Positions 7,114-57,634 of a stretch of 64,000 nt of DNA are shown here, one piece after another (within the stretch, counting starts at the first letter, position 1; the number at the start of each line of letters is the position of its first letter). The DNA comes from a virus: positions 1-64,000 of IMG/VR virus record IMGVR_UViG_3300025788_000001. One strand, 5' to 3'. The position numbers were made by a program, and so were the translations under genes. The notes beneath the pieces are model-generated. The model had not been told where the DNA came from, searched no databases, and worked only from the letters and a program-made list of their open reading frames with translations.

Positions 7114-9972
7114 TTAATCTTCCTCACTTATCACCAGCGGCCGTGTAATTCTCATTACATTGACTCGCATCGATGGGCCGCGTGTCTTAGCCAGCATGTC
7201 TTTGCGCATGTACGCTATCTTGTAATTAGGTAGTGTTTCAAGCTCCTTCTTCAAGTCAGAGTATCCATAACTCATAGTAGAGCAGTGTTGTTTAAGCAGT
7301 TGCTCCTCAATGAAGTAGTCAACGTGCCCCGGGGTCATATCATGCTCAACCCTTCCAGCCACATCTGACCTAGTTAGCGACTGGTCAATTTCATTATGCC
7401 CCCCTAGCGTTGCTTTCGTAATACCGTCAATAGCTTTAACCACAACGAATTTACCGTAGCACTCACGGGTGTAGGCGTTAAGAACATCTTCAGCGGAACG
7501 GCGGTTGCCTCGTACTGCGGCTCTAGCTTCATTAACCATACCGCGAAGGGTTTCTATAATAGGACGAATAGGTACATCAATAATGCCTGCATATTTTTTG
7601 CTCATTAGAATCACTATAGCTACGATGGCGGCATTACCAGCAGTCCAATAACGCTCGTCATCTGATGAATTAAATTCCGCTTTTAACTTCTCGCGGGTCT
7701 CTTCAAAAACCTTAACTGCGGTTTCTCTGTTCCTGACAATCCAACGAATCAATTCACGACCTACGACACCGTAGTTAGACTTTAGGAGATCAACAGTACT
7801 ACTCTCTGTTGACGACGCCCATTGAACTTCCTTGGCAGGCTTGACTTCCAGCATACGGAGCATTTCAGCTTGGGATGTATGCTTGCGCCCACCCGATAAG
7901 AAGTCGTAAATATGAGTGTTGCTTGAAAACAACACCATCAAGTTCCATACAGTTGTGTTCAAACGTTCCTTATTGGCGCCTTGTTCCATGCGCTCTTTGC
8001 CTTTACCTTGGGTTAAATCCAGTAGGAACTGGGGCAACCACTCAAATGACTCCCGATTTTTGTTTGTAATCTCGTCCATTACAAGCGGGAGGCTGTTTAA
8101 TAAGCCCTGTCTTTGCTGTGCGGCTACGGCTGAAGTTGATTGCGTGACCCTGTAGAGCTCTGGATGACCCCAAAAACTAGCTGCAAGGGCTAAGGCAAGC
8201 GATTTACCACGACCTGAACCCGAAGATCCGAGGTGATAAACAACGCCTCTAAAGCCTGAGAAATGCATCAGGATGGAAGCAGGCCCCACCATACCCATAG
8301 TAACAATCTCCCACAGCTCCTTGGCAATGTACATATTGAGTACTTTCTTCCACTCATCCAGCGTGCCCATAGGTTTAGTAGCGTAGTTAACGTTAGCCAT
8401 ACCAGGGGTCGGGACATATAGTTCCTTGCCATCAGGGGAGAAGATGGTGCTGTCGTAAACAAACGAATTGTCCTCTTGCCAGCCGCAGCTATGAGGAACC
8501 TTGACCGCCACCTTATTAGAACTGGCGTATTCCACACAACCACGGATGTACTCGTATAGGTGGACATCATTGCCCTTGCCGTAGACTGCGATTATATTGT
8601 GGCTAGCTAGCATCTTCACAGTCTCATCCTTACTTACTGCCGATTTTTGAGGCATTATGATATCTGAGGTGTGGGTAGGGCGGCAAACAATCATATGAAT
8701 CAAATGCTCATCGCCATTATCTAGGATATCAACCACAAACAAATCGTAAGGCAGGATCATTACCTGCTTCTTGACCTTTTCTCCGCCTTCTTCTTCAATT
8801 ACCTTGTCGATAAAGATGCCCCCATTAGCCCCATAGCTAAATCCGCGGGGTGGAATTGGGCGCACAATCATTAACTGCTCGGCAGGTTTGTCTGCTGTAG
8901 CCGCCTTGGTTTCTACTATGATTTCCTTGGGCTTATTGTCGACCTTAATTTCACGTCCCAATGCTAGCGGGTTAGTAATCTTACCGAAGTGTGGGCAACC
9001 TTTACATAAACCTGGGTTTGCCTCGTCAAGCTTTAAGCAACTGTAAGGGCCTTTGATTTGGTGCCACTTGGTATTGTGTCGATCCATATCGTAGGGGTGC
9101 ATGGCGGATAGGGCTTGACCTTCTTCCTCGCCATCTTCGCAGTACTTAGCTATGCTGAGGATACCCCGCCACAAAGGTTCCATGCCGTCATCTTTAGCAT
9201 GTTCAATGTAATGGTTTATCTGTTTGCATTTGGGCGCCAAAGTTTTAAAGAACGTGATGCTGTTCTCAACTATCTTGACGTTTGATGCAGAACCTTTTAA
9301 ATCTGGACGCTTGCCTGGTAAATCAAATTTAGGTAGCATTTCATGGGAGTCTTCCCCTACTTTTTCCCTGATGACCGTAGACAGTTGTGTAAAGTCAAAC
9401 GTTACACCGACCACCTTGATGGCAACAGACCGCGGCTTTTCCTGCTTATAGTTTTGTGTATCAGGTACACGTAGTACTCGAGCTGCATCGCCAGTAACCA
9501 TGGCGTCAATCCGCAGGCCTTCTTTCTTACAAAGGCGCTTGAGATTTTCTGCTACTGGTTTCCATGCGGATATATCTACTTCGTCAAAAAACGGCCAGTA
9601 TACGTGCAATCCGCCACCACTAGATACGACGTATGGGGTGCCCAACTGGTCTAACGAAGTTGAAGACAAAAAGCTACCCAATGCTGCTGCTGCTGCCTGC
9701 TTATTAGGATAATCCTTTCCTTCACCACAATCAATATCCAAGAATAAAGATTTTATTTTTAATGCGTTTGTGGCTAATCGCTTGCCACTTGTGTTGAATG
9801 ATGCTAAGGCGTAGAAAGCGTTTAAACCTTCTCCACTAAAGTGTGTAGCGTTGCTATACAGTTCATCAATCGTGTCAACAAAGACATGTTCTTTTTTAGC
9901 TGTGCTAAGTTCGCAGGCGCAATATTTACCCGAAGACGGAAGCACAGTCGCTAGGAATTCCTGCGACTTCAT
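7114..9972 (-). CDS. Fused archaeo-eukaryotic primase-type domain and DUF927/SF3-like helicase
   Basis: A 952-residue replication protein. The N-terminal prim-pol domain shows the metal motif 'FLDIDCG' (Asp79, Asp81) and the second AEP motif 'SSGGGLHVYW' (His123), then 'VTGDAARVLRVPDT' as a likely third motif. A Cys-containing linker near residues 320-335 (CLKLDEANPGLCKGC) may bind a metal. The C-terminal half is a DUF927-type ATPase with Walker A 'GSSGSGRGKS' (about 580-590) and Walker B 'LPLVMDE' (about 633). Such fusions lay RNA or DNA primers and unwind the fork. It is the last large gene of the early operon, downstream of the SSB-like and HTH genes. The start ATG at 9972 fits the N-terminus of the family. 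It could also act as a primase-polymerase; the sequence alone does not decide. Confidence 0.9.
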   Translation of the reverse strand: MKSQEFLATVLPSSGKYCACELSTAKKEHVFVDTIDELYSNATHFSGEGLNAFYALASFNTSGKRLATNALKIKSLFLDIDCGEGKDYPNKQAAAAALGSFLSSTSLDQLGTPYVVSSGGGLHVYWPFFDEVDISAWKPVAENLKRLCKKEGLRIDAMVTGDAARVLRVPDTQNYKQEKPRSVAIKVVGVTFDFTQLSTVIREKVGEDSHEMLPKFDLPGKRPDLKGSASNVKIVENSITFFKTLAPKCKQINHYIEHAKDDGMEPLWRGILSIAKYCEDGEEEGQALSAMHPYDMDRHNTKWHQIKGPYSCLKLDEANPGLCKGCPHFGKITNPLALGREIKVDNKPKEIIVETKAATADKPAEQLMIVRPIPPRGFSYGANGGIFIDKVIEEEGGEKVKKQVMILPYDLFVVDILDNGDEHLIHMIVCRPTHTSDIIMPQKSAVSKDETVKMLASHNIIAVYGKGNDVHLYEYIRGCVEYASSNKVAVKVPHSCGWQEDNSFVYDSTIFSPDGKELYVPTPGMANVNYATKPMGTLDEWKKVLNMYIAKELWEIVTMGMVGPASILMHFSGFRGVVYHLGSSGSGRGKSLALALAASFWGHPELYRVTQSTSAVAAQQRQGLLNSLPLVMDEITNKNRESFEWLPQFLLDLTQGKGKERMEQGANKERLNTTVWNLMVLFSSNTHIYDFLSGGRKHTSQAEMLRMLEVKPAKEVQWASSTESSTVDLLKSNYGVVGRELIRWIVRNRETAVKVFEETREKLKAEFNSSDDERYWTAGNAAIVAIVILMSKKYAGIIDVPIRPIIETLRGMVNEARAAVRGNRRSAEDVLNAYTRECYGKFVVVKAIDGITKATLGGHNEIDQSLTRSDVAGRVEHDMTPGHVDYFIEEQLLKQHCSTMSYGYSDLKKELETLPNYKIAYMRKDMLAKTRGPSMRVNVMRITRPLVISEED
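9370..9380 (+). repeat. GATGACCGTAG motif copy 1
   Basis: Exact 11-mer on the + strand inside the primase-helicase gene, which runs the other way. The antisense codons read Ser-Thr-Val-Ile. Confidence 0.7.
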
Positions 9973-9986
9973 AAATGCTCCTTGGG

Positions 9987-10142
9987 TTAACCGTTAATGC
10001 GTTGATTGAATCTTTTTAGTACTTCCTTTTGAAAACTTAACGGCATGCCAGTATCAAGGTAGCGTTCTGCAAAGCTAATTAGTTCTTTGTCGGTTAAGGC
10101 AGTTGGCGATATTGCCGATTCTTTTATTTGTTCTGCTTGCAT
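9987..10142 (-). CDS. Short conserved phage protein, 51 aa
   Basis: A gene of 52 codons starting with ATG at 10142 and ending TAA at 9987, overlapping the end of the HTH gene by 19 bases. GAGG lies nine to ten bases upstream of the ATG. The product contains 'LTDKELISFAERYLDTGMP' followed by 'SFQKEVLKRFNQR', an amphipathic all-helical layout I recognise from small unannotated proteins in phage replication blocks. It sits directly upstream of the primase-helicase, 14 bases before its start, so the two are probably co-translated. Function is unknown. Confidence 0.65.
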   Translation of the reverse strand: MQAEQIKESAISPTALTDKELISFAERYLDTGMPLSFQKEVLKRFNQRING

Positions 10143-10390
10143 TTTTTCATTGCCTCTTCAACAGTACTGCTTGTTTGTAATATGCGTAACAGGTTGGTCA
10201 CGCTCGTTCTGTACGATGGAGTAACTTCGGTTCCAGCGAACCAGTTATAAACCGTCTGTCTTGTTGCGCCTGTGTATTGCGAAATCTGAATTACAGGTAA
10301 ATTTAATTTAATAGCCCATCGACCTAACTGATTGCCTAGAGTCTTCTCCGCCTTAGCGGTGGACTGCCTTATTGTTTCTGAGTAAGCCAT
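10124..10390 (-). CDS. Helix-turn-helix DNA-binding protein
   Basis: 88 residues. A Cro/CI-like HTH is visible in 'ISQYTGATRQTVYNWFAG' (about residues 36-53): helix, turn and recognition helix with the QTVYNWF pattern common in phage XRE-type regulators. The C-terminus is a short helical tail rich in Lys. It lies between the Cys-rich peptide gene and the small gene before the primase, with a 94-base upstream gap that has room for its own promoter; I could not pick a clear one. It probably regulates the replication block or its own operon. There is no partner repressor in the window, so a lysogeny role is not supported. Confidence 0.75.
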   Translation of the reverse strand: MAYSETIRQSTAKAEKTLGNQLGRWAIKLNLPVIQISQYTGATRQTVYNWFAGTEVTPSYRTSVTNLLRILQTSSTVEEAMKKCKQNK

Positions 10391-10484
10391 AGTCTTTTCT
10401 TATTTGTAGGGTGGGGAGACAGTCTTTTTAGTCTGAAATCTCTAAGAGCCATAGAGCTGAATAGTGTCAGCCTCCCCGTAAACT

Positions 10485-10634
10485 TTATCCTGAGCAGGTC
10501 GTAAAACAGTTGCCAGACCAATCACAGCAAATAGTACAGATTCGTCCTGTTTGCATATCAGTGTTTGTCATACATCCAGCATAAACAGCGGATGCCGCTA
10601 AGACCAGCCCAAGGGCTACGATAATTTTACTCAT
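10485..10634 (-). CDS. Tiny secreted Cys-rich peptide, 49 aa
   Basis: ATG at 10634 lies inside the end of the SSB-like gene (ATGAGTAA arrangement); the stop is TAA at 10485. Residues 1-19 form a typical signal peptide: Lys3, a hydrophobic core 'IIVALGLVLAASAVYA', then 'AGC', which could be a signal peptidase I site or an imperfect lipobox. The mature part is short and has six more cysteines in 'ICTICCDWSGNCFTTC', besides Cys21. I read it as an exported, disulfide-bonded or metal-binding peptide. Possible roles include superinfection exclusion at the envelope or a lipoprotein; none is shown. It is odd to find it inside a DNA replication operon. Confidence 0.65.
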   Translation of the reverse strand: MSKIIVALGLVLAASAVYAGCMTNTDMQTGRICTICCDWSGNCFTTCSG

Positions 10635-11514
10635 CGTCTGTATCCCACTCATCAACAACAGAAGCTAAGTCACCAGTTTTCTTCTTTGGCACCGCTGATG
10701 GTTTAACTGTAGGTTTACGCTTCTCAGGCTCATCAAACGACTCCGCTTCTTCCTTAGGTGCGGCTAATGCTGGAGCTGCTTTCTTTGTACCTGCACTTTG
10801 GGAGACAGACATTGTAACCGCCTGCTTAGCCTCCTTAGACTCGCTCTTTTCCTTAACGCTCTCATACTCTTCCTCGGACAACCAACGCATAGGCTGGAAG
10901 AACAACTTAGGTACTGCGGCTTTAGTATCGAAACGCAACCGAGTAACAACAGTCTCGGGGCTAATGCTCTGCGCGGCTAAGAATCTTGCGTACGCTTGTA
11001 GTGGGCGCTTGTCGCCTTCTTCTTTACCGAAGATTGATGTAGCAGATAGGGTCAACTGCATAACATCGCCAGTTACGTCGTTAGATAATACAACCGCAAG
11101 ACGCTGACTGAAACGACATGCGCGAGAATCACCTTGACCGGAGCCTTTGGCATTTTGTGGGCATGACGCGCAGTTACTAGATTGCGCTTCTTTAGCGGAC
11201 GCATCGGGTTTTTCACCGTCAGCAGACCAACAATCGGGTGCTTTCGATGCTCCTTCTTCATAGCTACCAGCGTAATATGTACGGCTGATCTTTGGGGCGG
11301 CTTGAACAATCACCACATCAAGATGGCGGTCTTCGATAGCTGCTACCTCATCACTACCTGACATTAAACGAAATACACCACCTTTAACGGAGATGCGCTT
11401 ACCAAAATTACCACTACCACCGCCTGATAGGCTTCTCGCTAATTCAGAAATCTCTACCGTCTTAGCAAATGCTGGTAGTTGGGCGGGGTTAAATGCTGTG
11501 AGTTCTTTACTCAT
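10627..11514 (-). CDS. Putative single-stranded DNA-binding protein with acidic tail
   Basis: 295 residues. The central part has four cysteines ('APDCW', 'SSNCASCPQ', 'RACRFS') that could hold zinc, as in some phage SSBs. The region from about 205 on is low-complexity, and the protein ends in an acidic tail 'VVDEWDTDDE', a hallmark of SSBs that recruit replication partners (T7 gp2.5, T4 gp32, bacterial SSB). It sits between the helicase and primase genes. Its first codons overlap the end of the preceding 75-residue gene (ATGAGTAA). The family assignment rests on architecture and context; the OB fold itself cannot be read by eye. Confidence 0.55.
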   Translation of the reverse strand: MSKELTAFNPAQLPAFAKTVEISELARSLSGGGSGNFGKRISVKGGVFRLMSGSDEVAAIEDRHLDVVIVQAAPKISRTYYAGSYEEGASKAPDCWSADGEKPDASAKEAQSSNCASCPQNAKGSGQGDSRACRFSQRLAVVLSNDVTGDVMQLTLSATSIFGKEEGDKRPLQAYARFLAAQSISPETVVTRLRFDTKAAVPKLFFQPMRWLSEEEYESVKEKSESKEAKQAVTMSVSQSAGTKKAAPALAAPKEEAESFDEPEKRKPTVKPSAVPKKKTGDLASVVDEWDTDDE

Positions 11515-15209: not shown

Positions 15210-15467
15210 TTATTTGATTGAGCCATCTGCCTTCCTTGGGAAACTTCTATTAGCACTAGCACTCTTAGCTTTAAGATTACTTCGTACCGTCTTACCGCCT
15301 TTGCTTAGGGGCTTGGTGTGATCTACATCCTTGCCATCGCCTTTATGCACTACGCCTTCCCTCTCAAGCATACGTCTAGCTTTATTGCGTTGGGCGCGTT
15401 TCTTCTTAACGGCTTCTGTGCCGTCGTAGTTTAGGTACTCTTGTCGAAAATTACGCTTAGCTACCAT
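15210..15467 (-). CDS. Small basic HNH-like protein
   Basis: 85 residues, strongly basic, with 'GDGKDVDHTKPLSKGGKTVRSNLKA' (about 43-67; listed here in part as KDVDHTKPLSKGG and RSNLKA). The 'DVDH...PLSKGG...NL' pattern is the HNH first and second motif, but the final His/Asn pair that completes the active site is reduced to 'SASANRS'. It may be a degenerate HNH nuclease or a DNA-binding protein of the same fold. An AAGGA ribosome site precedes ATG 15467. Confidence 0.65.
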   Translation of the reverse strand: MVAKRNFRQEYLNYDGTEAVKKKRAQRNKARRMLEREGVVHKGDGKDVDHTKPLSKGGKTVRSNLKAKSASANRSFPRKADGSIK

Positions 15468-15966
15468 TTTTAAGTCCTTTCTTATTGTGCTCGGCTACTG
15501 CCTCACACCAATCAATAAATTCCTCTACAGAGGTATCGTTTCTAAAGCTGTTTACTGCCCTACAAACCATTTGAATATTATCGGGCGTATACCCTCCGCC
15601 TGCAACAATACGATCTATGGACGCATTTGTTTTTGTTATTACGCCTTTTTCTAAAGAGCAGGTCAAGTCTCGCCCCGTTAGAGCACACTTGTAGTTTTGC
15701 TTTTCAAGTCTGTCTAGAATAATCTGCTTAGTTAGTTTGTCTCTTTTTCTACCGCCATAATACAAAAGGCGTGCGGCATACCTTGACCAATCACCGCTTA
15801 TATATGCGTATTGATTCTCAGTAGACTGTATACCTGTAATGTATTTCCATTTGCCTTTACATTGTGGAGAACAAAATTTATGTACGCCCGAACGTGGAGT
15901 AAACAAAGTACCACAAACAGCGCATGCTTTTTGTTTAAATGTTTGTGGTGTGTCCCAGCGTGGCAT
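15457..15966 (-). CDS. HNH endonuclease with N-terminal zinc ribbon
   Basis: 169 residues. The N-terminal zinc ribbon is 'CAVCGTLFTPRSGVHKFCSPQC' (cysteines near 15, 18, 32 and 36). The C-terminal part, 'CALTGRDLTC ... ASIDRIVAGGGYTPDNIQMV', has the layout of an HNH/His-Me finger domain in which the first metal residue sits in 'SIDRI' and the last Asn in 'DNIQMVCRAVNSFRN'. It may be a homing-type nuclease or a nicking enzyme used in replication. It overlaps the small HNH-like gene by 11 bases. Confidence 0.7.
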   Translation of the reverse strand: MPRWDTPQTFKQKACAVCGTLFTPRSGVHKFCSPQCKGKWKYITGIQSTENQYAYISGDWSRYAARLLYYGGRKRDKLTKQIILDRLEKQNYKCALTGRDLTCSLEKGVITKTNASIDRIVAGGGYTPDNIQMVCRAVNSFRNDTSVEEFIDWCEAVAEHNKKGLKNGS

Positions 15967-37711: not shown

Positions 37712-38168
37712 AACCATCGCTTTGCCCCCACAAGGGTTTGTATTACCGGATGGCAGTATGCATTCGCTTGACGCAGTAGACGTAGAAGTAAATGAAGTAG
37801 CTGAGCCAACACCCGAAGAAATCCAGGTGCAAATGGCCCGCCAGCTACCTGAACCACGTGGTTGGAGAATGCTGTGTTCGCTGGTTACAGCCACAGACCA
37901 ATACGATAGCGGCATTGTTAAGGCTGATGAGACTAAGAAGATTGAGGAGCTAACTTCCCCAGTTTTATTTGTTTTGAAGCTAGGCGATCTAGCCTATAAA
38001 GATGAAGCTAAATTTCCAACAGGTGCTTGGTGTAAAGAGGGTGATTTTGTTATTACCCGCCCTTATACAGGTACTAGGATCATGATTTACGGAAAAGAGT
38101 TTCGTGTTATTTATGACGACCAAGTAGAAGCAGTTGTCGAGGACCCGAGGGGGATCGCGCGTGCGTAA
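37704..38168 (+). CDS. GroES-like co-chaperonin
   Basis: 154 residues. The C-terminal half shows the pattern of phage co-chaperonins: 'VLFVLKLGDLAYKDE', 'GAWCKEGDFVITRPYTGTRI' and 'GKEFRVIYDDQVEAVVEDP', with a beta-barrel character and a 'DDQVEAVVEDP' end as in GroES-like barrels. It would cap host GroEL and help fold capsid proteins, which fits its place between portal and scaffold genes. The mobile loop (about 65-100, 'YDSGIVKADETKKIEELTSP') fits the GroEL-binding loop. The match is by pattern, not exact motif. Confidence 0.65.
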   Translation: MSETIALPPQGFVLPDGSMHSLDAVDVEVNEVAEPTPEEIQVQMARQLPEPRGWRMLCSLVTATDQYDSGIVKADETKKIEELTSPVLFVLKLGDLAYKDEAKFPTGAWCKEGDFVITRPYTGTRIMIYGKEFRVIYDDQVEAVVEDPRGIARA

Positions 38169-38613
38169 TAGAACCGAATATCTTAGAGCTTGGAGAGCAG
38201 CAAACCCCGAAAAGGTTAAAGCGGCTAAACGAAAGTATTACTCTTCTGAAAAAGGTAAAGCACAAAAACGGAAGGAAGACGCAGCCTATGTAGCAGCTGG
38301 CGGTCGAGCTAAAGCAGAATTACGTAGAAGTGCTAAGCCGCTTTCTGAAACTAGAAAACAAGCAAAACTTAGATACCAGCTAGTTCGCCGTAGTTTTGAA
38401 AAAAATTTAGCAGAGCTTGATAGGCTAGTTCTTACTGAAGCGGTAGATCTTATGCGTAAGCGAAGTGCTATTACGGGCTTTTCTTGGCATGTAGATCATA
38501 TTGTTCCGGTATCAAAAGGCGGAACAAGTAGTGCTAATAACCTGCAAGTTGTACCGGCTTTATGGAATCGCAAGAAATCCAACGCGCACACCGAACGCTT
38601 TTTCGGTGCTTAA
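38161..38613 (+). CDS. Free-standing HNH endonuclease
   Basis: The start chosen is GTG at 38161 (GAGGGGG eight bases upstream), inside the end of the GroES-like gene; a TTG at 38134 is possible. About 150 residues: a basic N-terminal part ('NRTEYLRAWRAANPEKVKAA') and a C-terminal HNH core 'WHVDHIVPVSKGGTSSANN' with 'LQVVPALWNRKKS' as the last metal site. It lies between virion genes and is probably a homing-type mobile gene that does not serve assembly. It overlaps its host gene without breaking it. Confidence 0.85.
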   Translation: MRNRTEYLRAWRAANPEKVKAAKRKYYSSEKGKAQKRKEDAAYVAAGGRAKAELRRSAKPLSETRKQAKLRYQLVRRSFEKNLAELDRLVLTEAVDLMRKRSAITGFSWHVDHIVPVSKGGTSSANNLQVVPALWNRKKSNAHTERFFGA

Positions 38614-41694: not shown

Positions 41695-41725
41695 AAAACC
41701 CCCGCTCACAAGGCGGGGGTTTTTT
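41695..41725. terminator. Bidirectional terminator between capsid gene and HNH gene
   Basis: CCCCCGC (41699-41705), 7-base loop, GCGGGGG (41713-41719), T-run on both strands (AAAAA before, TTTTTT after). The loop holds the last bases of the HNH stop codon, so the terminator overlaps the 3' end of that gene (last residues Thr-Pro-Ala-Leu). It serves both convergent transcripts. Confidence 0.9.
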
Positions 41726-42056
41726 CATTGTAATGAAGCTTCCTGTGGCAGTTCGAACACAGCACAATACATTTTTTAATTTCTTTGTAGGCTTTGGTAA
41801 ACATCTTGGAACTAATTAGAGCACTTACTTCATACTCTTTTTCGCTTGGGTCTATATGGTGAAAATCCATACAGGCTATGTGGTTCTCCTTACACCGTGC
41901 GCAATGCAGACTCCCCTTGAATAGGTCCCACTTCTCCTTACCCCGCTTGGAATACTTAGTAGTAGCCTCTATTATCTTTTCTTTATTCTTCTCATAGTGC
42001 TTGCGGCTCTGCAGCTTATGGTATGCCTTCTTAACTTCTGGATCTTTATAGGGCAT
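41706..42056 (-). CDS. HNH endonuclease of the reversed cassette
   Basis: 116 residues. Core: 'CARCKENHIACMDFHHIDPSEKEY' (first part of HNH with CxxC), ending 'CIVLCSNCHRKLHYNE' (second CxxC and final His). It is a WHH/HNH-type nuclease with a zinc-stabilised fold. It lies on the - strand inside the + strand late operon with the Ntn-hydrolase gene, which suggests a mobile cassette. Confidence 0.85.
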   Translation of the reverse strand: MPYKDPEVKKAYHKLQSRKHYEKNKEKIIEATTKYSKRGKEKWDLFKGSLHCARCKENHIACMDFHHIDPSEKEYEVSALISSKMFTKAYKEIKKCIVLCSNCHRKLHYNEKTPAL

Positions 42057-47159: not shown

Positions 47160-48143
47160 ATGAACTATGTTCAGCTTTATCAGGCAATACAAGACTACGC
47201 AGAGAATACTGAGTCGCTATTTGTAAATAACATTCCTCGCTTTGTGCAGGAGGCCGAAGACCGTGTGTATAATTCGGTTCAAATTCCGTCTTTGCGTAAG
47301 AATGTTACTGGTACGCTGACTTCTGGTAATCAATATTTATCGGCTCCAAACGACTATTTATCTACGTACTCCTTAGCTGTTATTGACTCAAGTGGTAACT
47401 ACAAGTATTTACTTAATAAAGACGTTAACTTTTTGCGAGAAGCATACCCAGGCGTTGCTTCTAATGGTACTACCTATCAGGGTACACCAGGCGGGGTTCC
47501 TAAGTATTATGCGTTATTTGGGTCACAATATAGTAGTGCTAATGAACTAAGTTTTATCATGGCACCAACGCCAGATAGCAACTACACAGCTGAACTGCAC
47601 TATTACTACTACCCAGTCTCTATTGTTCAGGGTGCGTTGCCTATTAATTCACCAAATAATGCTGTACCAGCCGGTTCTATTACTACTACTGGTTCTGGCT
47701 ACACAAACGGTTTTTATGCAAATATTCCATTGACTGCTAACACAGGTTCAGGTTCTGGGGCTACGGCTAACATTACAGTGTCTGGCAACGTAGTCACTTC
47801 TGTGGCTATCACTAATGGCGGTAATTTTTATTCCGTTGGCGATACCTTGACTTGTTCTGGTAGCTACCTTGGCAATACTAACGCCACTCCTTTTGTCTAT
47901 ACTATATCCTTGGTCAATAACTCAACTGGTGAAAGCTGGCTTGGAGATAACTACGACCCCGTATTGTTCTACGGCTCGTTAAGAGAAGCAGCAATCTTTA
48001 TGAAAGCTGAAGCGGATATGGTTGGTTATTACGAAACTAAATACCAAGAAGCCGTTGCGCAAGTTAAACGCCTTGGCGATGGTTTAGAAAGGAACGACAG
48101 TTTTAGGAAAGGGCAGACCAGTCTGCCTTATAATCAGCTATGA
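47160..48143 (+). CDS. Tail adaptor/stopper-like protein with inserted beta domain
   Basis: 327 residues. The N-terminal 'NNIPRFVQEAEDRVYNSVQI' and 'AIFMKAEADMVGYYETKYQEA' at the end, with 'RLGDGLERNDSFRKG', match phage adaptor proteins that follow the portal. Between about 165 and 255 there is an inserted Gly/Thr-rich beta module ('GSGYTNGFYANIPLTANTGS', then 'VTSVAITNGGNFYSVGDTL'); the same module occurs in the tail-fibre gene at 51.76-52.02 kb. Ends just before an HNH gene. Confidence 0.72.
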   Translation: MNYVQLYQAIQDYAENTESLFVNNIPRFVQEAEDRVYNSVQIPSLRKNVTGTLTSGNQYLSAPNDYLSTYSLAVIDSSGNYKYLLNKDVNFLREAYPGVASNGTTYQGTPGGVPKYYALFGSQYSSANELSFIMAPTPDSNYTAELHYYYYPVSIVQGALPINSPNNAVPAGSITTTGSGYTNGFYANIPLTANTGSGSGATANITVSGNVVTSVAITNGGNFYSVGDTLTCSGSYLGNTNATPFVYTISLVNNSTGESWLGDNYDPVLFYGSLREAAIFMKAEADMVGYYETKYQEAVAQVKRLGDGLERNDSFRKGQTSLPYNQL

Positions 48144-48748
48144 TAAAAACTTGCTGTACTTGTAAAATAGCTAAAGAAATATCAGAATTTCATTCTGGGG
48201 CTAGACGCTGTAAACCTTGCGCTATTATTGCAGCTAAAGAAAGCTACACTAAAAATAAAATTAAAATAAGTTTAGAAGCTAAAAATCCAACAAAAAAAGA
48301 ATACACTAACGCCCTACGTAGGGCAAGATACGCAAAAAATTCTACCAATATACTTGCACGTAATAAAGCTTGGAAAAATAATAACCCAGAAAAAACGTCT
48401 TTATCGGTTAGTAATTGGCAAAAGAAAAACCCGAAAAAATGTTCTGCAAATACAAAAAAATGGGCGCAAGCAAATAAAGGTATTGTAAATGCAAGAACTC
48501 GAATGTACCAATTAGCTAAGTTAAACCGTACTCCAGCATGGCTTACAGATATTGACCGTGAACGTATTCAAAATGAGTATAAACTAGCTGAAATTCTTAG
48601 AAAAGTAACAAATCAGCAATGGCATGTTGACCATATAATCCCGCTTCAAGGTAAAATAGTGTCTGGGCTACATGTACCATCTAATTTACAAGTAGTTGTA
48701 GCCAAAGAAAACATAGCTAAAAGCAATAAATTTGAGGTTACTTTATGA
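48140..48748 (+). CDS. HNH endonuclease with N-terminal zinc finger
   Basis: 202 residues. The N-terminal 'CCTCKIAKEISEFHSGARRCKPC' (CxxC ... CxxC; shown in part) and C-terminal HNH core 'QQWHVDHIIPLQGKIVSGLHVPSNLQVV' (shown in part) with the last metal residues in 'NIAKSN'. The middle is very basic and Asn-rich. AT-rich codon use and ATGA overlaps on both sides suggest a mobile homing-type gene inserted between two tail genes. Confidence 0.85.
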   Translation: MIKTCCTCKIAKEISEFHSGARRCKPCAIIAAKESYTKNKIKISLEAKNPTKKEYTNALRRARYAKNSTNILARNKAWKNNNPEKTSLSVSNWQKKNPKKCSANTKKWAQANKGIVNARTRMYQLAKLNRTPAWLTDIDRERIQNEYKLAEILRKVTNQQWHVDHIIPLQGKIVSGLHVPSNLQVVVAKENIAKSNKFEVTL

Positions 48749-52679: not shown

Positions 52680-53114
52680 ATGACAATCGAATTCACAACA
52701 ACAATCACCTCAATGGAGGCTTATCCTCTTTACGAAGCAGTACCCTTGTATGTTTTTAGAGTTTACTGGAATTATGAAGGTAAAGACGATACAGGCGTAG
52801 GTACTGCTATGCAAGGCTCTACCGACATTCCAGCAAGTGACCCACAATCAGCTATTCCTTACGCTGACTTAACGCAAGAACAAGTCATGGGATGGGTTCA
52901 GACCTACACACCAGCATGGATGTGGGCAGAATACACAGACAAGATTAGTGCGTGGATTGTGGCTCAGTACACACCAGCAGTTGTTAATCCTCCATTGCCT
53001 TGGGCTGCTCCTCCAGTAGTTGAGCCTATTATTGAGTCTGTAGTTGAGCCTATTATTGAGCCTGTAGTTAAGCCTATTATTGAGCCTGTAGTTGATACTA
53101 TTGCACCTGCATAA
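52680..53114 (+). CDS. DUF7936-like protein with Pro/Glu repeat tail
   Basis: 144 residues. 'YVFRVYWNYEGKDDTGVGTA', 'GSTDIPASDPQSAIPYADLT' and 'QVMGWVQTYTPAWM' match the phage DUF7936 family, which is often found right after fibres. The tail has repeats of 'VVEPIIE' (four near-copies) and may be flexible. AAAGGATAATT precedes ATG 52680. Role perhaps in fibre assembly. Confidence 0.75.
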   Translation: MTIEFTTTITSMEAYPLYEAVPLYVFRVYWNYEGKDDTGVGTAMQGSTDIPASDPQSAIPYADLTQEQVMGWVQTYTPAWMWAEYTDKISAWIVAQYTPAVVNPPLPWAAPPVVEPIIESVVEPIIEPVVKPIIEPVVDTIAPA

Positions 53115-53849: not shown

Positions 53850-55457
53850 ATGTCAAGTACATACTCAACTTCACTGCTCTTAGAGCTTATCGGTAACGGA
53901 GATCAATCCGGTACTTGGGGGTCTACAACCAACAATAACCTAGGCAACTTGATTGAACAGGCTATTACTGGGGTACAAACCGTTAACTTTGCAACTGACG
54001 CAAACCGCACCCTAACTAACTTTAACGGAGCGCTGGATGAGGCACGTAATGCTGTTCTTGTAATCACTACATCCGTTTCATTAACTGGCACCCGCCAAGT
54101 TGTAGCCCCGCTGGTAAATAAACAATATGTGGTCTATAACAATACAGGATACACAATTACCTTTGGGGGTACTTCTGGTGGTGTAGTTACTATTCCAAAC
54201 GGCATGGTTACTGCGGTTTATTGCGATAGCACAAACTTTGTTGCCGGTATTAACGGTGTTCCAGGAAACTGGACGGTAAACGGTAACTCTACAATTAACG
54301 GCAACGAAACAGTAAAAGGCAATATTGCAGCTAGCTCTGCTGTTTTTGTGGGTTCTATTTCAGGCACAACCCTTACTGTTACTTCTGTTACCTCGGGAAC
54401 TATCGCTACTGGCCAGTATCTTAATGGTTTGGGTGTAACTCCTGGAACAACAATTTCTAGTGGTAGCGGAAGCAGCTGGGTTATAACCCCATCCCAAACT
54501 GTATCTAGTACAACAATTACTGCAAATGGTATTGTTAATGCTGGCGCTTTTGTTGGTGACGGTACATACTTAACTGGTACAGCTCCTAACTTAAACATTG
54601 GCGGAAACGCAGCAACTGCAACTTTTGCCACTTCTGCCGGAACTACTTCTAACTTTACTGGTGTTGCTAACCCACCAAGCGGCGGTACTGGTTTAACCAG
54701 CGTGCCTTTAAACTACTTGGTTTCTGGTAATACTACTTACCCATTTAATACTGTTGCTCCTGGTACAGCCGGTAACGTTCCACTTTCTACAACGTATGGC
54801 GCGGCTACTTTTGTGGCTGGTATTGCTGCAGGTACGATGACCGTAGCTTCTATTTCTTCTGGCACATTAACTGAAGGCGCTACTATTGCCGGTACTGGAG
54901 TTACAGGCGGCACAACAATTAACCAGCTAACTTCTGCTGGCTCAGCAGCTGCAACAAAAACATACGTAAGCGGCGGTGCAGTTGGAGCAAATACAATTAC
55001 GCTAAACTCAGTTACATCAGTAGTAGTTGGCCAATTAGTTATTGGTACAGGCGTTCCTAACAGTACGTTTGTTCAGTCTATTTTTGGTTCACAAATTACT
55101 TTATCTAAAAACCTAACTGTCCAAGCTGCTGGTACATATAACTTCTACACACCGGGCGGTGTAGGTACTTACCAAACAACCCCAACCCAAACTGTATCAT
55201 CTGGAACAACTATTACTGCTACAAATGGCACATACTTTACTAGCCAGCCATTAAACTGGGATAACGTAGCAGGTAAACCAACTAACATAAGTTACTGGAC
55301 AAATGATTCGCATTATATGAATGAAGCTACTGGAGGTGGTAGTGCGTATGGAAACGCAAACCCAGCCGTTACAAGTGTATACTTGTCCAGGTCCGGTATT
55401 ACAGCTGTTTTATCTGTTGGCACACAATGCAACTGTAACTGCGCCTGCGACTGCTAA
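53850..55457 (+). CDS. Tail fibre with C-terminal Cys-alternating tail
   Basis: 535 residues. The N-terminus 'SLLLELIGNGDQSGTWGSTT' is the phage fibre type that precedes 'NLGNLIEQAI', then beta-rich repeats ('ISGTTLTVTSVTSGTIATGQ' and 'TMTVASISSGTLTEGATIAG' are related modules). The protein ends 'SVGTQCNCNCACDC': Cys527, 529, 531, 533 and 535 alternate to the very end. There are no other cysteines in the last 100 residues. AAAGGATAATTA precedes ATG 53850. The tail is a candidate substrate for the radical SAM enzyme two genes downstream, or a metal-binding or disulfide tip. Confidence 0.85.
   Translation: MSSTYSTSLLLELIGNGDQSGTWGSTTNNNLGNLIEQAITGVQTVNFATDANRTLTNFNGALDEARNAVLVITTSVSLTGTRQVVAPLVNKQYVVYNNTGYTITFGGTSGGVVTIPNGMVTAVYCDSTNFVAGINGVPGNWTVNGNSTINGNETVKGNIAASSAVFVGSISGTTLTVTSVTSGTIATGQYLNGLGVTPGTTISSGSGSSWVITPSQTVSSTTITANGIVNAGAFVGDGTYLTGTAPNLNIGGNAATATFATSAGTTSNFTGVANPPSGGTGLTSVPLNYLVSGNTTYPFNTVAPGTAGNVPLSTTYGAATFVAGIAAGTMTVASISSGTLTEGATIAGTGVTGGTTINQLTSAGSAAATKTYVSGGAVGANTITLNSVTSVVVGQLVIGTGVPNSTFVQSIFGSQITLSKNLTVQAAGTYNFYTPGGVGTYQTTPTQTVSSGTTITATNGTYFTSQPLNWDNVAGKPTNISYWTNDSHYMNEATGGGSAYGNANPAVTSVYLSRSGITAVLSVGTQCNCNCACDC
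54836..54846 (+). repeat. GATGACCGTAG motif copy 8
   Basis: Exact 11-mer in sense with the Cys-tailed fibre gene; the frame reads Met-Thr-Val-Ala. Confidence 0.7.
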
Positions 55458-55466
55458 GGAAAAATT

Positions 55467-56222
55467 ATGAACTTATATACGCTACAAAATACTAATCCTA
55501 TATCAGTTTCCGCTGTTGATGTAACTCGTGCTGATAATACTATTACGTTTGCGGTTACAACAACAAACACTGCTGATAAAAACCCAAGAGTAGATACTTT
55601 TACGTTAGACTATAATTTGTTATCAGCCCGTTCAGATTTTGACGATAGCACACAATGGATTATCGGGTATAACCCAGAATATGCACCCCAAGGTGGCGGC
55701 CCTCTATTTATTATCTACAACACCTTTAAAGAAACATTCCCAACTAAAGGAAAAAGTGGTACTTTTACAGCAAGACGTGACGGCGTAAATATTATTTTTT
55801 CTTTGTATGTGCCGTTTAAAAATTCGTCATTAGATGAATGTTCTTTACTAGTAGTTAGTGAAGACATCACAAAGATAACAGCGGATTCATCTTTCTCCGC
55901 CCCAATCGTGGTAACTGATAGACTTAGCATTCGCCCTTTAGTAATGCCTTCTGTTCGCGCTGTATCTGTTACACCTATTGGCCAAGATTTAGATGTCGTG
56001 CTCCAATTGTGTAAAAATGGGCAAGATATAAGTAATATTGCAACCCTTTACATTTCATGTGATACTGGCTCTTTGTCTTCTTCAGTTATTAAAACAAATG
56101 GTAATGGGCAGGCAACCCTGCGTATCTATGGTGACCCACACCGTGCCGGAGAAGCTGGTGTATTAAACGTTGGCTTCAAGTATTGGAGCGGCGAGCTTTA
56201 CGTAAATTACATAGCCCCTTAA
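55467..56222 (+). CDS. Hypothetical virion-like protein between fibre and radical SAM gene
   Basis: 251 residues, beta-rich with 'FAVTTTNTADKNPRVDTFTL', 'FTARRDGVNIIFSLYVPFKN', and near the end 'LYISCDTGSLSSSVIKTNGNGQATLRIYGD' (in part), which looks like a Big-type Ig domain. Cysteines occur at 'LDECSLL', 'LQLCKNG' and 'YISCDTG'. GGAAAAATT precedes ATG 55467. It may be a second fibre part, a chaperone or the substrate carrier for the next gene. Confidence 0.65.
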   Translation: MNLYTLQNTNPISVSAVDVTRADNTITFAVTTTNTADKNPRVDTFTLDYNLLSARSDFDDSTQWIIGYNPEYAPQGGGPLFIIYNTFKETFPTKGKSGTFTARRDGVNIIFSLYVPFKNSSLDECSLLVVSEDITKITADSSFSAPIVVTDRLSIRPLVMPSVRAVSVTPIGQDLDVVLQLCKNGQDISNIATLYISCDTGSLSSSVIKTNGNGQATLRIYGDPHRAGEAGVLNVGFKYWSGELYVNYIAP

Positions 56223-56245
56223 AAGAAATTACAAAAAACCACATC

Positions 56246-57634
56246 ATGGCTAAATTTAAATTAGATTGTCTTGACGCCCTTAAACCAGAAAAAAGAAAAA
56301 CATTTTTGTATGACAATGCAACTTCGGAACTTCTAAATGAAGACGGCACTCCTTTTGACTTTGGTTTTATTGTTGTTGACCCAAAAAAATATAAAGATAT
56401 AGCAACACCGAATAAAGATAATCCTATTGGAAAAAGCCGTAGACTAAAGCGACTTAAGATTCAGCTTGGTCTTTCTTGTAATTACGAGTGCTCATATTGT
56501 AGCCAGCGGTTTGTACCTAGGGCTGATGAAACTAACCCAGATGATATTGAACCATTTTTAACCCAGCTTCCTACATGGTTTGATGGTGGAGAAGATGGCG
56601 ATGGTAGCGGTGTACGTATAGAGTTTTGGGGCGGTGAACCTTTTGTATACTGGAAAACTTTTAAGCCTTTAGCTGAGCGCATTCGTCAGATGTACCCTAA
56701 AGCAGAATTTTTGGTTATAACTAATGGCTCTTTACTTGATCTAGAAAAAAATCAATGGGTAGATGACTTAGGTTTTATGGTAGGTATATCCCATGATGGT
56801 CCGGGATACCATGTTCGTGGTGAAGACCCGTTTGATAATCCCAAACAGTTTGCTGCTATTAAAGATTTATTTGACCGTTTATACCCTAAAAACCGTATAA
56901 GTTTTAATGCCACATTAAATAAAGATAACCAAAGCCGTACCGCTATTGGCGAGTTTTTTGAACAACGTTTAGGGATTATGCCTGTTATTGGGGAAGGTAG
57001 CTTTGTTGACCCATATGATGAAGGGGGCGCAGCTTCTTGTTTTGATGACCCTGCTGATTTTTTATCCTATAGAAACAAGTACTTAGCTGAATTGCGAGAC
57101 GGTGGGGTCCATAACTTTACTACAATTGCTAGTAAAATTACAGATTTTAAAGACTCTATTATTAATAACCGTCCAGCTTCTGCATTAGGGCAAAAGTGCT
57201 CTATGGATAAACGAGACCAACTAGCCGTAGATTTACATGGAAATGTGCTTACTTGTCAAAATGTATCGTCTGTAGCCATAAGTTCAAACGGTGAAAGCCA
57301 TAAAATTGGGCACGTATCTGATTATGCTAATATCAAGCTTAATACAGTTACCCATTGGTCACATCGTAAAGAATGCCCTAATTGCCCTGTGTTACAAATG
57401 TGCCAAGGTAGCTGTATGTTTTTACACGATAAGTTATGGGAATTAGGTTGTGATACGGCTTTTTCTGACAACGTTCCTTTATTTGCCGCGGCTATTGAAG
57501 CTATGACTGGGTATATTCCGTATTACATTGATGGTCCACAAAGAGATGACCGTAAAGATATATTTGGACTGGTGCACGGCATTCCAGAGCGTAAAGCTAA
57601 AAAGCCTTTTCCTATCCCTGTAGTATCAGCTTAA
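56246..57634 (+). CDS. Radical SAM/SPASM enzyme
   Basis: 462 residues when started at ATG 56246 (an earlier in-frame start at 56183 would overlap the previous gene). Radical SAM cluster motif CxxxCxxC at Cys78, Cys82 and Cys85 ('SCNYECSYCSQ'), 'RIEFWGGEPFVYW' and 'FLVITNGSLLD' as barrel motifs. The C-terminal SPASM-type auxiliary cluster uses cysteines at 318 and later ('LTCQNV', then Cys377, 380, 386, 390 and 402: 'CPNCPVLQMCQGSC'). Family members modify peptides or proteins (anSME, sactipeptide and ranthipeptide maturases). In the same operon as the Cys-tailed fibre. Confidence 0.9.
   Translation: MAKFKLDCLDALKPEKRKTFLYDNATSELLNEDGTPFDFGFIVVDPKKYKDIATPNKDNPIGKSRRLKRLKIQLGLSCNYECSYCSQRFVPRADETNPDDIEPFLTQLPTWFDGGEDGDGSGVRIEFWGGEPFVYWKTFKPLAERIRQMYPKAEFLVITNGSLLDLEKNQWVDDLGFMVGISHDGPGYHVRGEDPFDNPKQFAAIKDLFDRLYPKNRISFNATLNKDNQSRTAIGEFFEQRLGIMPVIGEGSFVDPYDEGGAASCFDDPADFLSYRNKYLAELRDGGVHNFTTIASKITDFKDSIINNRPASALGQKCSMDKRDQLAVDLHGNVLTCQNVSSVAISSNGESHKIGHVSDYANIKLNTVTHWSHRKECPNCPVLQMCQGSCMFLHDKLWELGCDTAFSDNVPLFAAAIEAMTGYIPYYIDGPQRDDRKDIFGLVHGIPERKAKKPFPIPVVSA
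57545..57555 (+). repeat. GATGACCGTAG variant (GATGACCGTAA)
   Basis: Ten of eleven bases match. Near the 3' end of the radical SAM gene, reading Asp-Asp-Arg. Confidence 0.35.

Follow-up and report, generated by a model that had tools for sequence, protein, structure and literature searches.

Does a virus chemically modify the tip of its own tail fibre? The question is raised by one locus in IMG/VR virus record IMGVR_UViG_3300025788_000001, of which positions 1 to 64,000 (64,000 nucleotides, hereafter the window) were analysed; the whole record has 67,073 bases and carries structural genes and a GH108 endolysin gene. At this locus a gene for a tail-fibre-like protein of 535 residues (53850..55457, + strand) ends in alternating cysteines, and two genes on lies the gene for a radical S-adenosylmethionine (SAM)/SPASM enzyme of 462 residues (56246..57634, + strand). 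The original prediction for this locus proposed that the enzyme acts on the fibre end. We found that such cysteine tails and enzymes of this family are nearly always encoded together, in viruses as well as in bacterial genomes. The explanation we favour, with moderate confidence, is that the fibre gene, the enzyme gene and the gene between them form a fibre-tip maturation cassette, in which the enzyme would link the tail cysteines as thioethers.

The presumed modification site is the C-terminal tail C-N-C-N-C-A-C-D-C (residues 527–535; 55428..55454, + strand). The protein closes with QCNCNCACDC (full end SVGTQCNCNCACDC-stop), and five of its six cysteines fall within the final nine residues, at positions 527, 529, 531, 533 and 535; the alternating end is thus exactly as first described. 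Five alternating cysteines at the end did not occur once in 200,000 residue shuffles of the fibre, and among the 179 stop-to-stop open reading frames (ORFs) of at least 75 residues in the window, the fibre alone had a terminal (XC)3 run. A chance origin was ruled out by these shuffles together with a reverse search that started from the tail, described below. No RNA structure was found at the fibre stop codon (z 0.33). The protein itself is probably a tail fibre. Its residues 1–189 match phrog_31104 (E = 2e-10), and its PHROG matches are to unnamed families only; relatives with the same N-terminus were recovered. The label is supported by relatives that bear a Peptidase_S74 chaperone, by an annotation in phage JWF as T4-gp36-like, and by a position just downstream of the J/Tal hub protein.

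The enzyme carries the ligands expected for three iron-sulphur clusters. A CxxxCxxC motif (Cys78/82/85; 56477..56500, + strand) would hold the SAM-binding [4Fe-4S] cluster, and a seven-Cys SPASM region (Cys318–402; 57197..57451, + strand) is expected to hold two auxiliary clusters; its cysteines 318, 337, 377, 380, 386, 390 and 402 fit the pattern CX(9-15)GX4C - CX2CX5CX3C - C, so that the Cys set originally recognised proved to be complete. All ten ligand cysteines are invariant in an alignment of 30 diverged members, the window enzyme included, to which the other 29 are 42–63% identical. The SPASM model TIGR04085 scored 33.5 bits (cut-off 27), which places the enzyme in that subfamily, and Cys78/82/85 together with a structural model that matches anSME and CteB place it in the radical SAM superfamily. 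Pfam Fer4_12 scored 22.3 (cut-off 22); Pfam Radical_SAM matched with E = 4e-5 at 24.2 bits, under its cut-off of 29.5. The enzyme belongs to PHROG 1802 (208 bits, E = 6e-61, residues 44–429 of 462), a phage family that also takes in Achromobacter phages 2-1 and JWF and for which no function or substrate is recorded. Its start is most likely the ATG at 56246 rather than the TTG at 56183, because the family alignment starts there with MAKF.

We sought to determine whether tail and enzyme occur together across related phages. Close relatives of the enzyme were collected from 37 viral loci (loci are designated here by L numbers), and 31 of these, i.e. all with enough DNA, had an ORF with (XC)3 or longer on the same strand. 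The tail lay within 4.5 kb upstream of the enzyme in 27 of the 37; in four more (L029, L030, L031, L036) a Cys run lay 2–3 kb downstream, and in the other six the contig end leaves too little upstream DNA. A profile-guided scan of GTDB genomes then gave 80 bacterial loci, from Limnohabitans, Burkholderia, Paraburkholderia, Polynucleobacter, Magnetospirillum, Rhodospirillaceae, Thalassobacter, Halomonas, Parasutterella and others, host names which are tentative because many of the genomes are metagenome bins. A tail was present within 4.5 kb upstream of the enzyme in 58 bacterial loci and absent in nine; for enzymes scoring at least 300 bits the figures were 51 and 4. The nine exceptions are mostly distant homologues: L210, L222, L224 and L240 are of this kind and show no phage genes, in L179 the upstream genes are unrelated and on the reverse strand, and in L233 the tail is 6 kb off. 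At 80% identity the tail-bearing enzymes formed 17 viral and 34 genomic clusters.

Two further observations concern the bacterial loci. In L230 (Parasutterella muris), one of the exceptions, tip-like ORFs with CxxC repeats (HCSYCSYCTYCSQCSNC) lie 1.8–2.9 kb upstream of a distant enzyme homologue at 9908-11218, possibly a variant with different Cys spacing. In L234, L235 and L241 (gut Sutterellaceae and a Bacilli bin), at least two radical SAM/SPASM genes adjoin one another.

The reverse search was a blind one for the DNA pattern encoding Asn-Cys-Asn-Cys-Asn-Cys-stop in the viral collection, where ORFs of at least 75 residues were counted as true. Among the matches listed, the enzyme stood beside 62 of 84 true ORFs, compared with 1 of 35 chance matches (Fisher P = 8e-14), and searches of whole records found it in two more loci. 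This left, among the same matches, 20 tail loci. In a check of loci with a tail and no enzyme, L114 among them, about half ended at a contig border: ten of the 20 stop at one just past the tail or the partner gene, and nine encode other proteins, namely a family of 202 residues (L055, L085, L104, L119, L137), a family of 184–190 residues (L052, L099, L111) and one single protein; L153 falls in neither group. We also collected phages that have the N-terminal part of their fibre in common with the window, whatever their C-terminus. Tail and enzyme were both present in 4 of the 49 usable loci, both absent in 45 and discordant in none. For a second fibre type, 9 loci had both, 31 had neither and two seemed to have the enzyme only; in these two the tail proved to be in the next ORF, giving 11 with both and 31 with neither, although the rows of these presence/absence comparisons are not all independent. 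The association of tail and enzyme is near-obligate: it is very strong in both search directions and in presence and absence across related phages.

These comparisons bear on one alternative, that the enzyme is a metabolic or defence gene which merely travels with fibre genes. Phage radical SAM genes occur elsewhere, for example in CP220, where an advantage for host metabolism was proposed (PMC2853527), and PADLOC returned a match of the enzyme to prokaryotic viperins. This match is weak, extends over the radical SAM core only and reaches 48.2 bits where the cut-off is 180; the window enzyme, moreover, contains a SPASM domain, and a viperin-like defence role was rejected accordingly. Enzyme presence also follows the short tail and not the fibre type, with concordant gains and losses. 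We therefore consider a passenger gene very improbable.

What, then, is conserved in the tail? Beside members of the enzyme family we counted 144 distinct tails of like form. The run is the exact C-terminus in 94 and ends within eight residues of the stop in 37, while 12 tails carry long extensions. Between the cysteines (n = 647 residues), Asn accounts for 487 (75%), Ala for 70 (11%) and Asp for 47 (7%), and Asn or Asp stands at -3 for 84% of the later cysteines. The codons are mixed (TGC 395, TGT 259; AAC 293, AAT 194), and this mixture of synonymous codons speaks for selection at the protein level and makes a DNA repeat or slippage artefact an unlikely origin. The tail is thus conserved as protein, at or near the C-terminus.

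The extended tails have features of their own. Hint-like modules follow directly, or a few residues on, in eight of the 12. In Achromobacter phage JWF the tail NCNCDCNCNCS is followed by CFPAGT and a Hint domain (PF05203, E = 3e-12), and in phage 2-1, which was read separately, ANCNCDCNCS is followed by CFPAGT with a Hint match of 5e-12; the match is weaker in L191, L226 and L243, and L219, L220, L225 and L227 were recognised chiefly by motif. In the enzyme tree the Hint forms fall in two separate clades. In L032–L034 a Peptidase_S74 chaperone comes right after NCNCDCNCDCFW (22.5 bits, cut-off 22). Hint and Peptidase_S74 modules cut themselves off, so the tail would stand at the mature C-terminus in these proteins too. 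The tail thus becomes exposed by more than one route, which speaks for the importance of its position at the mature C-terminus. After the Cys tails of L029 (5342-6328) and L031 (9429-10334) there is a domain of about 175 residues that starts SKI(V/I)CAK(F/L)YD and has no Pfam match; it takes the place of Hint or S74 in other phages and might be another self-removing module.

The anatomy of the tail could also be read as that of a metal or Fe-S needle. The three chains of a trimeric fibre would stack rings of cysteines on the axis, much like the iron-binding HxH motifs of phage and pyocin fibres, and the enzyme would act indirectly or on neighbouring residues. Alternating residues share one side of a strand, and some tails come after His-rich segments such as DPHHHHNNCTNCNCNC. 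However, the tail and the enzyme are nearly inseparable here, and to our knowledge HxH fibres need no radical enzyme; nor does a tail that ranges from 3 to 10 units speak for the needle. The precedent lies in pyocin fibres and in gp37 of T4, whose HxH iron sites likewise place repeated side chains at alternating positions of a fibre (PMC6116203). These sites differ in using His instead of Cys, in having no dedicated enzyme and in not being limited to the extreme C-terminus. We regard a needle of this kind as distinctly unlikely. As a separate observation, a His-rich stretch (e.g. DPHHHHNNC) stands just ahead of the Cys tail in L013, L046, L062 and L098, and such sequences suggest that metal may be bound close to the tip.

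Since the tail and the enzyme belong together, the chemistry of the enzyme's relatives was compared. Among full-length NCBIfam models, PapB (NF047865) matched the window enzyme best and headed the list for all 30 aligned members, all of which were also matched by the QhpD, CcpM, DynA and anSME models; with the window enzyme, each of these five models stays far under its own cut-off. The nearest annotated plasmid proteins were QhpD/PeaB at about 21–26% identity, and the solved structures closest in sequence were TigE, CteB and anSME. The AlphaFold2 model (mean predicted local distance difference test score, pLDDT, 87) gave anSME, CteB, ChlB, TigE, SuiB and SkfB as its first PDB matches in Foldseek, with anSME 4k36-4k39 at the top (E about 1e-10). 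Because the nearest families and structures are PapB, QhpD, CteB, anSME and TigE, the enzyme can be placed, on its profile and model matches, in an uncharacterised subfamily of the radical enzymes that modify proteins or peptides. Had its closest characterised relatives used small molecules only, the proposal would have been refuted; PapB, CcpM, QhpD, CteB, anSME and TigE all use peptides or proteins.

Several of these systems resemble the one proposed here, each with a difference. QhpD is a radical SAM/SPASM enzyme that forms thioethers from Cys to methylene carbons of Asp/Glu within a full-size protein subunit (PMC8172795), but that substrate is a bacterial enzyme subunit rather than a virion fibre, and the acceptors sit in a fold rather than in an (NC)n tail. 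PapB and other ranthipeptide maturases (also NxxcB and CteB) join Cys to C-beta or C-gamma in Cys-rich substrates, with Asn and Asp as acceptors; their precursors are short and bear a leader, whereas the substrate proposed here is part of a large structural protein, namely its uncleaved end. The candidates near the enzyme are fibres or tip proteins, mostly of 80–540 residues with (XC)n ends, and a short PapB-type leader precursor with CX3D/E repeats was not among them. anSME modifies Cys or Ser of a protein and has two auxiliary clusters, but its target is an internal sulfatase motif.

Taken together, the Cys tail is very likely the substrate of the enzyme, which is also the simplest account, and a thioether is, with moderate confidence, the product we would expect. 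The C-terminus of a fibre or short tip protein would be synthesised as a run of (Asn/Asp/Ala-Cys) units, and the phage's own radical SAM/SPASM enzyme would bind this tail. The 5'-deoxyadenosyl radical would then take hydrogen from residues between the cysteines, to which the Cys sulphur would be joined as thioethers. The most likely link would run from Cys to the beta-carbon of an Asn or Asp at the third position upstream; the repeat provides this N-x-x-C spacing. Thioethers are favoured because the closest SPASM enzymes join Cys sulphur to neighbouring residues: NxxcA forms a Cys-Asn C-beta thioether with N-x-x-C spacing (PMC8326336), PapB forms Cys-Asp links (PMC9413430) and QhpD makes its links within a full-size subunit. 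The modified tip, which presumably faces the host surface, would then be rigid and withstand both redox changes and proteases.

The enzyme could act on the same tail by other radical chemistry: it might epimerise alternating residues, oxidise Cys or Asn, or form C-C links, and the alternation would then reflect the register in which a processive epimerase works or that of a beta-helix. Epimerases and enzymes with other chemistries are known within the SPASM type, and EpeE/YydG and TigE are among the structural or sequence neighbours; the oxygenase genes that many relatives carry between tip and enzyme (see below) suggest further modification. Against this, the full seven-Cys SPASM region, PapB as top model and the match of QhpD to all 30 members speak for an enzyme of the Cys-linking kind, and it is the Cys that is constant while the spacer varies. 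We consider other chemistry unlikely, though the least so of the alternatives. Several results nonetheless weigh against thioether linking of the tail by this enzyme. Every model of a thioether-forming family scores the window enzyme far under its membership cut-off (PapB, 56.6 bits against 340; QhpD, TIGR03906, 34.4 against 453), as does the anSME model (TIGR03942, 39.2 against 349), and neither an RRE-like domain nor a leader peptide is evident, residues 1–31 of the enzyme model being three strands. Ala and Val also occur between the cysteines, and Cys-Asn/Asp linking leaves them unexplained. A tail is absent nearby in a few enzyme relatives (L179, L210, L222, L224, L235, L240), and for two unrelated phage families ending in NCNCNC no enzyme of this family was found in the records.

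The fibre, partner and enzyme genes share the + strand and are separated by 9 and 23 bp. Their order is as originally described, and expression of the three as one operon is likely from this layout. The gene between (55467..56222, + strand) encodes a partner protein of 251 residues, all-beta in its model, with a C-terminal Ig-like domain of the intimin/invasin type. Its family has 114 members by BLAST clustering and is kept between tip and enzyme in most loci. This protein had been considered as the possible real substrate, which is unlikely, because no cysteine is conserved across 38 aligned members; it is more plausibly a tip or assembly component.

Other loci vary this arrangement. In many, one to four 2-oxoglutarate-Fe(II) (2OG-Fe(II)) oxygenase-like genes lie between tip and enzyme, and these could hydroxylate the same tip; in a third group the tip directly adjoins the enzyme. 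Examples in which such genes lead from a Cys-tailed tip to the radical SAM gene are L017 (5783-8001), L035, L037 (6001-7839), L023, L063 and L174. Three short tip proteins follow one another in several phages, and each of them has a Cys tail. Two or three tandem tips of about 80–170 residues precede one enzyme gene in L019 (3431-4211), L037 (3640-4449), L063, L080, L087, L103, L110, L128, L135 and L153, with N-termini that are alike in several phages; these are possibly alternative or heteromeric fibre tips. In L025 (6002-7081), a single frame contains three tandem units with nothing but stop codons and short linkers between them, and every unit has TNCNCACDCL at its end. Stop-codon read-through was considered for this locus and is unneeded, because every unit starts with its own ATG right after the preceding stop. 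In the window, a DUF7936 protein (52680-53114, E = 5e-15) with VEPIIEPVVEPI-like repeats at its end lies directly upstream of the fibre cluster. HNH-endonuclease-like ORFs, recognised by eye from Cys pairs and HVDH-type motifs, stand among the phage genes at 48140-48748, 38134-38613, 15457-15966 (- strand) and 41706-42056 (- strand).

In keeping with the original prediction, which knew of no described phage system of this sort, the open-licence literature, where absence is not proof, gave no relevant match for NCNCNC with phage, no paper linking radical SAM enzymes to tail-fibre modification, and no report of a virus using radical SAM maturation on its own virion or host-recognising part. Papers on Pelagimyophage and CP220 (PMC2853527) treat phage radical SAM genes as cassettes or metabolic genes. 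The logic of an enzyme and its Cys-rich substrate is already known, from small peptides and a few enzymes; a protein at the receptor end of a virion appears to be new as a substrate.

In conclusion, viruses with both tail and enzyme very probably modify chemically the tips that touch bacteria, because the genes for the Cys-tailed fibre and the radical enzyme are nearly always together. About evenly balanced, in our judgement, is the broader reading, in which a widespread and old class of tailed phages and prophages owes its receptor-contacting tips to radical chemistry. A dedicated radical SAM/SPASM enzyme, in many cases together with 2OG-Fe(II) oxygenases, would make a polycyclic thioether cap out of the (Asn-Cys)n tail, and phages would differ in what exposes this cap at the mature end: a stop codon, a Hint domain or a self-cleaving S74 protease. 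The cultured members, Achromobacter phages JWF and 2-1, allow direct testing. If true, a virion protein would for the first time be known to undergo radical-SAM modification, and the adhesin tip would be of a new type. If confirmed, it would explain PHROG 1802, a common unannotated phage family, and would provide a natural set of enzymes for stapling protein C-termini. It would also add a chemical layer to host recognition by phages, one that is missed by sequence and by AlphaFold models of unmodified fibres.

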